Shown here piece after piece: positions 7,076 to 10,222 of a DNA stretch of 64,000 nt. The notes beneath the pieces were generated by a model. It did not search any database, was not told the DNA's origin, and worked only from the letters and a program-made list of their open reading frames with translations. Every line of letters starts with the position of its first letter. Position 1 is the first letter of the stretch. The position numbers and the translations under genes were made by a program. Where the stretch lies: assembly GCF_013623775.1 (NCBI RefSeq), contig NZ_JABFAM010000005.1, positions 186,001-250,000 on the forward strand, in the 5' to 3' direction. The DNA is from Rufibacter sp. XAAS-G3-1 (lineage in GTDB: Bacteria > Bacteroidota > Bacteroidia > Cytophagales > Hymenobacteraceae).

Positions 7076-7297
7076 TTGACGCAACTTATACTTTGAGAGC
7101 TATATATTATATTCGGTAGTTCAGTTACGGTTATCTGTCAAAAACGGATGTAAACAGGATGTTTCAGTCTAACCATAGGGCTGATAACCGGAGTTGTTCC
7201 TTATACAAGGTAGTTGGTGGTAATAAATAACATGAAAGTTTTATGGAAATTAGGCAAATAATGAATCTATATCTGACAAGCTATTTCCTATAACTAA

Positions 7298-7954
7298 ATG
7301 AAAAAGATAATACTTACCATAGTCCTTCTACATCTTTATACATTCACTTTCGGTTGCATGTGTACTAAAGCTCCTGAAACTACCTTAGAAGACTGGGCGA
7401 AAAGTGATTTAATTCTTATAGGAAAAGCAACTGAAATAATTGAGAACTCAAGGTTATTCGACAAAGGTGGACAGCAACTAAGAATCATCAACTTCCAAAT
7501 ATTGGAGGGCTTTAAAAATATTGAGAAAGAGCAGAGAATAATTTCTTTTGACTATTCAGACAATTCCTGTCAGTATACTTTTGAGGTCGGTAAAACATAT
7601 GTTATTTACGGACATCAAATGCCCTCTGGACTAGCTTTTACAAATTCTTGCACAAACACTAGGAAACTTCCCGACAGCTTCGCACAACTTCCAGCGATAA
7701 AAGAGCTAAGGGAAATTTCTAAAGAAAAGGACATTAAACAGCCGAAGGGGCAAACTTTCGCAATGATTGAAACCTCGACTTTAGAAAAGCTCCAAAGAGA
7801 TGGTAGCGAACTTGCAGAGTCAAAGGATAGGATAAAGTATTTGTATTATGCTCTTGGCGTCTCAGCATTTTTTAATGTCATTTTAGGTATTCTGGCATAT
7901 AAAAAGAGAAAAATTACTACCACCAACATTGTGTTCTATGGTAAAAGCAAGTAA
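7298..7954 (+). CDS. Secreted NTR/TIMP-like domain protein with C-terminal membrane anchor
   Basis: 218 residues. A signal peptide runs to about residue 19, and the mature protein opens with Cys-Met-Cys. The pattern CMC...DLILIGKATEI, a later SCQYTFEVGKTYVIYG and a further SCTNTRKL resembles the netrin/tissue-inhibitor-of-metalloproteinase fold, in which an N-terminal Cys pair is disulfide-bonded to distant cysteines. A hydrophobic segment (about residues 184-204) followed by Lys/Arg suggests a C-terminal anchor. The gene is distinctly AT-rich compared with its neighbours, which suggests transfer. Function unknown; the fold call is by pattern only. The IS110 element begins shortly after its stop. 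Confidence 0.6.
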   Translation: MKKIILTIVLLHLYTFTFGCMCTKAPETTLEDWAKSDLILIGKATEIIENSRLFDKGGQQLRIINFQILEGFKNIEKEQRIISFDYSDNSCQYTFEVGKTYVIYGHQMPSGLAFTNSCTNTRKLPDSFAQLPAIKELREISKEKDIKQPKGQTFAMIETSTLEKLQRDGSELAESKDRIKYLYYALGVSAFFNVILGILAYKKRKITTTNIVFYGKSK

Positions 7955-7994
7955 AACCGCATAAATTTACCAAGAACCGATTCCTGAAGTCTTC

Positions 7995-8990
7995 TCACAC
8001 CTGTAGGCACACGTAGGGCGTGTTGCGCTGGATGACGGCGAACATGCGGCTCACTATTTTGTTCTTGATGGCGTTCAAGACGGCCATGGGGTGCTTGCCC
8101 TCCGCCGTTTTCCTCTCATAGTACTTCCGGTACTCGTTGCCCGCCTTGATGCTGGTCAAGGCGCCCATGGTCAGGAGGGCCTTTATCTTCTTGTTGGCGA
8201 TCTTGGACACCTTGGTCCTTCCTTTCACGCTGGTGCCTGAGCTGTACCTGAAGGGCGCAAGGCCTGCGTAGCAGGAGAACTTGCGCCAGCAGGGGAAGCG
8301 GGTGAAGCCCCTGGTGAGCACGAGCATCTGGTTGGCCGTCTGCTCACCCACGCCCGGCACCGTGCACAGAAGCTCCTTCTTCTCCCTCAGTTCCTGGCGC
8401 TCTGCGATCCTGCGGTTTATCTCCGCCTGCACCTCCTTCAGCTTCTTGTCCAGCAGCGCCACCATCTCCTTCTCGACCTTCAGCAGGAACCTCATGTCCA
8501 GGCAGCCCTCCAATACTTTCAATTCCTTGATTCGGGTCTTATGCGCCGACTTTTCCTTCAGCAGCCGCTCCCGCTGGGAGGAGAGCTGGCCCAACTCCAG
8601 AAGAAGGCATGGGGCGGCTTGGCCGAAGGTGAGCTCGTCCAGGTTCCTTTTCAGGTAGCGGGCGATCATCAGCGGGTCCGCCTGGTCGTCCTTGCCCCGG
8701 ACGATGCCCATGGAGCGCCTGATGCGGTAGGCGTTCTCCGAGACGAATCTGAGCCCCTTCTCCGAGAGGAATCTGCCCAGGCCGACGGAGTAGACGCCCG
8801 TGTCCTCGAAGCCGAGGATAAGGCCGTGGTCCGGGCCGGGGCAGAGCTTGGCGGCCCATCTGGCCAGTTGGCCGAAGCCAGCCTTTGTGTTCTTGAATTG
8901 GGAGTGGCAGTGCCCGTTGTCGGGGAAAAGGGCGGTGGCATCCAGCGTTAGCTTGCTGACGTCGATGCCGATGAAAAGGTTTTTTTCCAT
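7995..8990 (-). CDS. IS110-family transposase (DEDD/serine type)
   Basis: 331 residues, full length for the family. The N-terminal RuvC-like DEDD domain shows D10 in IGIDVSK, E62 in GFEDTGVY and D102/D105 in GKDDQADP; a coiled coil follows (about residues 125-210). The C-terminal domain carries LCTVPGVGEQTA and the conserved serine in YSSGTSVKGRTK (Ser250/251), then KAGNEYRKYYERK. These recombinases insert DNA through a composite active site and, in characterised members, are guided by an element-encoded bridge RNA. No frameshift or stop is seen, so it is probably intact. Confidence 0.93.
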   Translation of the reverse strand: MEKNLFIGIDVSKLTLDATALFPDNGHCHSQFKNTKAGFGQLARWAAKLCPGPDHGLILGFEDTGVYSVGLGRFLSEKGLRFVSENAYRIRRSMGIVRGKDDQADPLMIARYLKRNLDELTFGQAAPCLLLELGQLSSQRERLLKEKSAHKTRIKELKVLEGCLDMRFLLKVEKEMVALLDKKLKEVQAEINRRIAERQELREKKELLCTVPGVGEQTANQMLVLTRGFTRFPCWRKFSCYAGLAPFRYSSGTSVKGRTKVSKIANKKIKALLTMGALTSIKAGNEYRKYYERKTAEGKHPMAVLNAIKNKIVSRMFAVIQRNTPYVCLQV

Positions 8991-9000
8991 ATCTTTCTTC

Positions 9001-9160
9001 TAGGTTTAAAAGAAGGTCGGGCGACTGTCACCTTTAGCAGGCATGCAGGCCTAGTGTTCTATCTTGTCAGGGCCGACCGGAAGAAATGGGGAGAGGACTA
9101 ACACAATGTAGGGGCATGAAAACCCATATAAACGTTTAGTTCTCCTCTCCCATTTCAAAT
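9001..9160 (-). ncRNA. Candidate IS110 bridge RNA region
   Basis: Between the transposase start and the presumed IS end two stem-loops can be drawn. Stem A pairs 9083-9101 with 9136-9156 (GAAATGGG with CCCATTTC, then AGAGGA with TCCTCT, then CTAA with TTAG) around a loop of about 34 nt. Stem B pairs 9015-9020 (GGTCGG) with 9073-9078 (CCGACC) around about 52 nt. Read on the minus strand, A comes first, then B, then the transposase ATG. Two large-looped hairpins upstream of the CDS match the known bridge RNA layout of the IS110 group. RNA ends and guide sequences are not determined. Confidence 0.45.
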
Positions 9161-9198
9161 ATAGGAAATTGCACTCTCGCAGATGAGCAAATATAAAG

Positions 9199-9241
9199 GT
9201 ATAAACGCCAGCATCGGCCGACGGCCTCGCCGCCGTTTATA
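9199..9241. repeat. Inverted repeat GTATAAACG/CGTTTATAC
   Basis: Nine-base perfect arms with a GC-rich centre, directly outside the IS and 26 nt before the next start. It is followed by CCGTTAGCAGAAATTAA, a motif that resembles AGTTGGTGGTAATAAA before the gene at 7298. Confidence 0.55.
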
Positions 9242-9267
9242 CTAGTCCGTTAGCAGAAATTAAAAAA

Positions 9268-9564
9268 ATGAATATTAAATCTATCCGTATAATATGGACT
9301 TTCTACACAGCCTTTGCCGTACCCTCCATGGCGATAACATTGTCTTGCCTAAGCCTTAATATTGAGTCGGGTTTGCGGTTATACTCAATTATTTTCTGGT
9401 TCAAGGTAGCGACCCTTAGCTTGATGTTCCTTGCTGTGAACAGCTATAAAAAGCATGAGTATTTTTATTATTATAATTTAGGTGTATCTAAGGTGAAACT
9501 ATGGGCCTCAACCCTCTCATTTGACTTTTTTATTTTCCTATTCCTAAACTTTCTGCCCTACTAA
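9268..9564 (+). CDS. Small membrane protein (three predicted TM segments)
   Basis: 98 residues, mostly hydrophobic, with membrane segments at about residues 8-28, 36-57 and 78-97 and a short cytosolic stretch with YKKHEYFYYYNLGVSK. I recognise no family. The ABC ATPase gene begins 4 nt after the stop, so the pair is almost certainly one operon and this protein is the likely membrane partner. The AYYYNLGVSK-like cytosolic stretch could be the coupling surface; that is inference. The DNA is AT-rich like the rest of the patch. Confidence 0.65.
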   Translation: MNIKSIRIIWTFYTAFAVPSMAITLSCLSLNIESGLRLYSIIFWFKVATLSLMFLAVNSYKKHEYFYYYNLGVSKVKLWASTLSFDFFIFLFLNFLPY

Positions 9565-9568
9565 ACCG

Positions 9569-10222
9569 ATGATTCACAGACTAGAGGCAGACAGTATTCT
9601 TCTGGAATTGGGTGGCCGTAGAATTCTCTCGGATATCTACTTAAGTTGTGAGACAGGTAGAATAACAGGCCTGTTGGGCAGAAACGGGCAAGGGAAATCA
9701 TGTCTTATGAAGGTGATTTATGGCAGCCTGGAATGTAGTCAATCAGTCCGTTTTGACGGGAAGTTCCAATCAGCAGCGTTTAAGCGGCCTGATTTATTGC
9801 TTTACCTCCCACAGTTCAATTTCATACCCGCATGGCTCACGCTGAAACGGGTATTCAGTGACTTCGGTCTCGATTATGCACCGTTCGAAAATAGGTTTCC
9901 TGAGTTTGCTGGCAGACACAAATCATCTATGAAAAGCCTCTCAGGCGGCGCCCGTAGGCTGGTGGAAATATATGCCATTGTTAAATCAAAGTCGCAGTTC
10001 GCCATGCTCGATGAACCTTTCACGCATTTGAACCCCATTCAAATCGAGAAAGTAAAAGAGTTTTTACTCGAAGAGAAAAGCAACAAAGGGTTATTGCTCA
10101 CCGACCACATGTTCAGACACATTCTAGACATAAGTGATGATATGAATTTACTTACTGATGGCCGGATTCATTTGGTGAAAAGCATCGAAGAAATAGAAAC
10201 ACTTGGATATGCCAGAATATAA
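9569..10222 (+). CDS. ABC transporter ATP-binding protein (short)
   Basis: 217 residues, a single nucleotide-binding domain. Walker A GRNGQGKS at 37-44, Q-loop Gln82, signature LSGGA at 124-128, Walker B FAMLDEP at 144-150 with catalytic Glu149, and switch His180 in LLTDH. All catalytic residues are present. It is preceded by the 98-residue membrane protein and no other permease is nearby, so the complex would have very small membrane subunits. The substrate is unknown. Similar isolated pairs can act in lipid or peptide export or immunity; nothing here decides it. Confidence 0.85.
   Translation: MIHRLEADSILLELGGRRILSDIYLSCETGRITGLLGRNGQGKSCLMKVIYGSLECSQSVRFDGKFQSAAFKRPDLLLYLPQFNFIPAWLTLKRVFSDFGLDYAPFENRFPEFAGRHKSSMKSLSGGARRLVEIYAIVKSKSQFAMLDEPFTHLNPIQIEKVKEFLLEEKSNKGLLLTDHMFRHILDISDDMNLLTDGRIHLVKSIEEIETLGYARI

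Follow-up and report, generated by a model that had tools for sequence, protein, structure and literature searches.

A predicted bridge RNA of an IS110-type element inserted in an attC-like site of Rufibacter

The window analysed here is a stretch of 64,000 nucleotides (nt) from Rufibacter sp. XAAS-G3-1 (contig NZ_JABFAM010000005.1, positions 186,001 to 250,000), and all positions below without a contig name refer to it. On its minus strand, at 7933-9198, lies an IS110-type insertion sequence (IS) of 1266 bp, core dinucleotide not counted. The transposase gene, tnpA (7995-8990, minus strand), encodes a 331-amino-acid (aa) protein with DEDD and Transposase_20 domains, which scores 165.9 bits against NF033542 (cut-off 140) and also exceeds the cut-offs of PF01548 and PF02371. 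Two relatives of solved structure were found in the PDB, ISCro4 (1e-28) and IS621 (7.1e-26), and by these matches the transposase is that of an IS110 element. In an alignment of five transposase proteins D10, E62 and D102 are invariant and D105 is present in four; we take these four positions to be the catalytic residues. The non-coding stretch 5' of tnpA measures 208 nt (8991-9198), versus 62 nt on the 3' side (7933-7994), and it is in the longer stretch that a bridge RNA, an RNA specifying both donor and target, had been proposed.

Element ends and interrupted target site

When the flanks of the element are closed up with a single GT, they give CCAACATTGTATAAACGCC, the form found in empty copies: the flanking repeat has many uninterrupted copies in the window's own genome. 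In another genome of the genus (L123, in G014) the same cassette, 91% identical, terminates in the uninterrupted sequence CCAACATTGTATAAACACC, and in a third genome (L124, 87%) the site, likewise uninterrupted, reads CCAACAACGTGTAAACGCC. Comparison with these uninterrupted sites fixes the limits of the element at 7933-9198, with a core dinucleotide (GT on the plus strand, AC on the minus strand) present at 7931-7932 on the right-end side and at 9199-9200 on the left-end side. Read along the strand of tnpA, the target sequence is CGTTTAT-AC-AATGT (CGTTTATACAATGT, AC core included).

The uninterrupted homologue and the empty copies identify 7921-7932 (plus strand) as the left part of an attC-like site, with a core CACCAAC at 7921-7927; the right part, recognised from the empty copies, occupies 9199-9255 (plus strand) and ends in a core GTTAGCA at 9249-9255. 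With its halves separated, the site would have lost its attC function. The cassette gene 5' of it (7298-7954, plus strand) has no Pfam match and its frame now enters the element, while its L123 homologue is followed by the uninterrupted site. Elements of the same lineage stand at the same position in clear attC-like copies at L002 and L030 (L030 and L056 being one same element); at L031, again at this position, nothing of the site beyond its inner arm and AAC core can still be recognised.

Fold, guides and conservation of the predicted RNA

The minus strand of 8991-9260 (270 nt), which is the strand of tnpA, folds at -85.6 kcal/mol compared with a shuffled mean of -69.96 (standard deviation, sd, 4.75; z -3.29), an energy equalled by none of 200 shuffles; the plus strand folds less well (z -2.11, 6 of 200 shuffles as good). 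The two large-loop stem-loops originally noticed between the IS end and the transposase start are thus present on the minus strand, as a target-binding hairpin at 9083-9156 and a donor-binding hairpin at 9015-9078. Their loops, placed by the original prediction at 9102-9135 (target) and 9021-9072 (donor), had been assigned correctly. Together the hairpins form a predicted RNA of about 170 nt, with approximate ends (9010-9181, minus strand) drawn from the fold, the conserved structure and the position 3' of a -7-type promoter element described below. At gathering thresholds, an Rfam scan of the window detected tRNA alone and no other RNA family.

The structure was evaluated over 20 stem pairs in 13 of 14 aligned RNAs, L045 being excluded. 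Standard pairs fill 95.0% of the cells, a level reached by none of 500 shuffles, and two-sided changes occur at 11 of the 20 pairs versus 5.1 in shuffles, again with 0/500 as high. Further pair types number 19 versus 16.9, which is within the shuffle range (80/500).

The first loop contains both target guides and the second both donor guides. The left target guide (LTG, CGTTTATA, 8 nt, 9127-9134, minus strand) is identical to the left target beside the left end plus the first core base, and the right target guide (RTG, ACATTGT, 7 nt, 9103-9109, minus strand) is the complement of ACAATGT, that is core plus right target, at the right-end junction. In the donor loop, the left donor guide (LDG, ATAGAACAC, 9 nt, 9054-9062, minus strand) has the sequence of the element's right end plus the core, and the right donor guide (RDG, TAAAGGT, 7 nt, 9030-9036, minus strand) is the complement of ACCTTTA, core plus left end. 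Base-shuffled loops attain the guide lengths in 24 (LTG), 57 (RTG), 3 (LDG) and 53 (RDG) of 5000 trials, the donor-guide match being scored in the window copy alone. Complementarity of the loops with the element ends and the insertion site, and conservation of the stems in related copies, are the two features on which the original prediction had made itself depend; both are found.

Guides were then compared with flanks across relatives. Of 54 distinct elements, that of the window included, 43 yielded a target loop by pattern and 40 were kept, 30 with both flanks and 10 with one flank missing; six loci with short transposase matches were omitted, and L086, at a contig end, was excluded from target-loop extraction. 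The element's own bases were removed from the flanks for the permutation test, and the left end of L065 was placed by hand. Over the 30 elements the left guide fits its own flank at 5.63 of 8 positions versus 4.39 for swapped flanks (sd 0.16), and the right guide at 5.53 versus 4.68 (sd 0.12), neither value being reached in 100,000 permutations; the result is still 0/100,000 with duplicate flanks removed (28 elements). Taken alone, the 14 elements of group 1 score 6.36 versus 4.38 on the left and 5.64 versus 4.58 on the right (0/100,000 each), and the 16 elements of group 2, a second lineage considered below, pass the right-guide test with 94/100,000 permutations. The viral collection yielded no confirmed relative.

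The hairpins lie directly 5' of tnpA, and an earlier proposal held that IS110 non-coding ends regulate the recombinase, which would suit a 5' leader acting as an attenuator or in translation control rather than as a guide. The loop sequences, however, follow the flanks of each element, as a leader has no need to do, and the donor guides match both element ends. We regard a leader function in place of guidance as very improbable.

Several observations weigh against a bridge RNA. The single guides are short, so that the case is made by the guide set and the family, and the LTG has a T where the core has C. A 5' stem-loop before the target loop is weakly predicted, as a small hairpin in the minimum-energy fold that nearly disappears in the centroid. 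Among relatives, 11 of the 54 have no target loop by pattern, three more (L096, L039, L103) were mis-extracted and dropped, and L032 and L045 present no clear flank match by eye. The second copy (L002/L044, G000 C17:3341-4645), 89-91% identical, carries a truncated left end together with the substitution D105G and is probably inactive, and L031 carries an in-frame stop and an altered RDG. The left-guide test is weak in group 2 (2712/100,000 permutations), within which the left target is nearly invariant. Own-flank scores fall below the foreign-flank mean on the left in 7/30 elements, all of group 2, and on the right in 2/30 (L085, L065). Such cases, together with the shortness of the matches and the common targets of related elements, are in line with guide matches due to chance or to shared ancestry of element and flank. 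Yet flank permutation never reaches the observed mean fit, whether or not duplicates are removed, and two-sided changes affect more than half of the stem pairs, so that we give this explanation almost no credence. The IS110 transposase, the position of the RNA, the four guide matches and the tracking of flanks by guides all support the proposal of a bridge RNA specifying donor and target: the minus strand from about 9181 to 9010 is very probably the bridge RNA of this IS110-group element, with target guides in loop 1 and donor guides in loop 2.

In four Mucilaginibacter elements (L064, L065, L066, L068) two target-loop hairpins stand in tandem, about 100-270 nt 5' of tnpA. The right guides differ between the tandem copies (CTTCGTAT versus GCCCGTAT) in three of them, L068 being the exception, which suggests that a single element might address two targets. 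By eye, L032, L045, L064 and L073 display a long inverted repeat 3' of tnpA, of the type GTCAAGGG...CCCTTGAC; that of the Mucilaginibacter element resembles the element's own left target guide.

Predicted junction promoter and known systems

The left end carries a -7-type element, TATATTTG (9188-9195, minus strand), recognised from a motif across the end junction, and the right end a TTG (7948-7950, minus strand) that lies 20 nt from the -7 element in a circle only; in the integrated copy of the window, TTG is absent at this distance. The pattern TTG-N20-TAnnTT[T/A]G spans the right-left end junction in 21 of 28 elements, compared with a mean of 0.04 and a maximum of 2 in single-base shuffles; the core was counted once, and L086, whose left end is outside the data, was scored as a miss. 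The exact form TAnnTTTG, found in 9/28 elements, is the Bacteroides -7 consensus as given in PMC4747536. The right-left end junction would in this way assemble a Bacteroidota-like promoter. A point against it is that the -7 half is partly circular, because left ends were located by a motif including TA, and the single-base shuffle control leaves this left-end bias in place; the TTG and the constant spacing are free of circularity.

A plausible cycle would begin with excision of the element as a circle, in which the right end, joined to the left end, would create a promoter driving transcription of the bridge RNA and tnpA. The recombinase, binding this RNA, would engage the right-left end junction through the donor loop, and the target loop would select CGTTTAT-AC-AATGT, which corresponds to the outer core and inner arm of the attC-like site; strand exchange would then be catalysed at the AC core.

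This scheme closely parallels IS621 as described in PMC11208160: the RNA is located in the left end, 5' of tnpA, with the target loop followed by the donor loop; LTG and RTG, like LDG and RDG, pair with opposite strands; the core is shared; a promoter, here predicted, is re-formed at the end junction; and the RNA length is similar (about 170 nt predicted here, 177 nt in IS621). The two transposases are distantly similar (94.4 bits). The target is attC-like here, in contrast to IS621, whose targets that account compares with repetitive extragenic palindromic (REP) elements; moreover, the core is AC instead of CT and the predicted junction promoter looks Bacteroidota-like, not of the sigma-70 type. 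A second parallel is the seekRNA of ISEc21, described in PMC11187229 as a guide RNA encoded 5' of tnp and matching each target strand, although target and host group differ and the transposase has 331 aa here versus 345-385 aa in the ISEc21 cluster. The same source names IS1111 elements, ISKpn4 and ISPst6 among them, that like ours have integron-cassette attC sites as their targets; their guide region, however, is 3' of tnp, whereas ours is 5'. In this respect our element departs from the IS1111-attC group, tnpA ending only 62 nt before the right end. A search of the open-licence literature, preprints excluded, found no paper uniting bridge RNAs, IS110 and Bacteroidetes and none on Rufibacter and integrons; a prior report of IS110 at an integron attC may possibly exist in the literature.

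attC-like arrays and a second IS110 lineage

The repeat interrupted by the element consists of outer cores ending in AAC or starting with GTT and of paired inner arms flanking a centre, CGGCCGACGGCC. This centre is found 50 times in the window's genome (38 forward, 12 reverse), versus once for a reversed-pattern control, and in all 16 genomes of the genus. Half of the 50 copies are in clusters, on contigs C7, C18, C19, C20 and at the end of C25, where they come after open reading frames (ORFs) at the spacing of cassettes, and all copies of a cluster share one strand; from genome to genome, a given cassette gene is found beside different neighbours. Outer cores, paired inner arms and one-strand arrays of cassette ORFs are all present, although several copies have imperfect cores or none that was found, and we read the flanking repeat as an integron attC. 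The original prediction had missed this attC-like nature of the target.

A 484-aa Xer-like tyrosine recombinase is encoded in 16/16 genomes of the genus, in two of them detected via weaker matches (L105-L121); in G000 the loci are C17:44086-45537 and C20:24234-24955 (L021, L050). In 14/16 genomes attC copies begin 3' of the recombinase on its strand, and in 12/16 the distance from the gene to a same-strand centre downstream is at most 1.5 kb; in G006 the first of 11 sites is at 1.8 kb, and G005 has one at 2.5 kb. No centre was seen downstream of the recombinase in G011, nor in the genome of the window, in which the contig stops about 220 nt past the gene. A canonical IntI integron was rejected: in the window's genome every IntI model stays below its cut-off (TIGR02249 scores 198.7 bits, cut-off 265), and the family-specific extra segment is absent, the recombinase being without about 40 IntI profile positions (18 residues separate matches ending at 180 and starting at 241). 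Sub-cut-off IntI matches carry little weight alone, because they are present in all 14 control genomes. The system resembles an integron whose integrase is non-canonical; a complete integron of Bacteroidetes, that of Salinibacter ruber, is mentioned in the IntegronFinder 2.0 paper.

The flanking palindromes might instead be REP-like repeats, in which case the cassette-array reading would be wrong and the bridge RNA would stand. Many cores are indeed imperfect (of 27 own-genome contexts scanned automatically, 21 yielded cores and 13 the GTTRR form, and the scan often mis-picked the left core), the IntI models stay under their cut-offs, and the 25 unclustered copies may include some that are not attC. 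Against this stand the one-strand clusters 3' of ORFs at cassette spacing, the upstream recombinase in 14 of 16 genomes and the varying cassette neighbours, and we consider REP-like repeats unlikely.

The transposases of group 2 are 36-40% identical to that of the window. AAC precedes the left end in 14/16 of these elements, and CGCTAAC starts the target loop in 13/16; the constant AAC could be partly the element's own, the preceding bases being variable. At L043 and L085 the attC body is on the right side of the element, so this second IS110 lineage appears to enter attC-like sites at the opposite core. One site elsewhere in the genus (L042, G010 contig C3) has a first-lineage left end on one side and a second-lineage right end on the other. 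The inner arms to the right of group-2 elements reach a length attained in at most 10/300 shuffles for 8/16 elements and in 29-35/300 for five, and are shuffle-like in three (L038, L047, L095); for L041 and L048 the script mis-picked the left flank. Second-lineage right ends also terminate three attC-like sites of the window's genome (L008, L014/L085, L019).

On balance we favour, with some reserve, a picture in which a Xer-like integrase other than IntI operates the cassette arrays and two IS110 lineages are programmed to different parts of the attC hairpin (outer core plus inner arm, and opposite core); these lineages would be specialised integron parasites silencing single recombination sites. 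The mechanism would be an ordinary one of known type; the unusual features are its target and host group, the presence of two lineages on one site family and the resolved set of guides and flanks. The window provides a predicted Bacteroidota bridge RNA whose element could be delimited, along with its core, target and empty site, by sequence comparison. The 30-element set, in which guides and flanks co-vary, could help to derive reprogramming rules and to develop a recombinase that suits Bacteroidota. Integron recombination sites would be targets of IS110 elements as well as of the IS1111-attC group, and the effect of RNA-guided elements on cassette shuffling becomes testable.

Next to the interrupted site, window positions 9268-10222 encode in tandem a 98-aa protein that has no Pfam match and, next, an ABC transporter ATPase (PF00005), which may form one cassette of two genes; the exact attC centre does not recur in this interval. 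On the other side, 5' of the cassette gene at 7298, positions 7167-7219 read by eye GTCTAAC ... TTATACAAGGTAGTTGGTG, a possible diverged attC.
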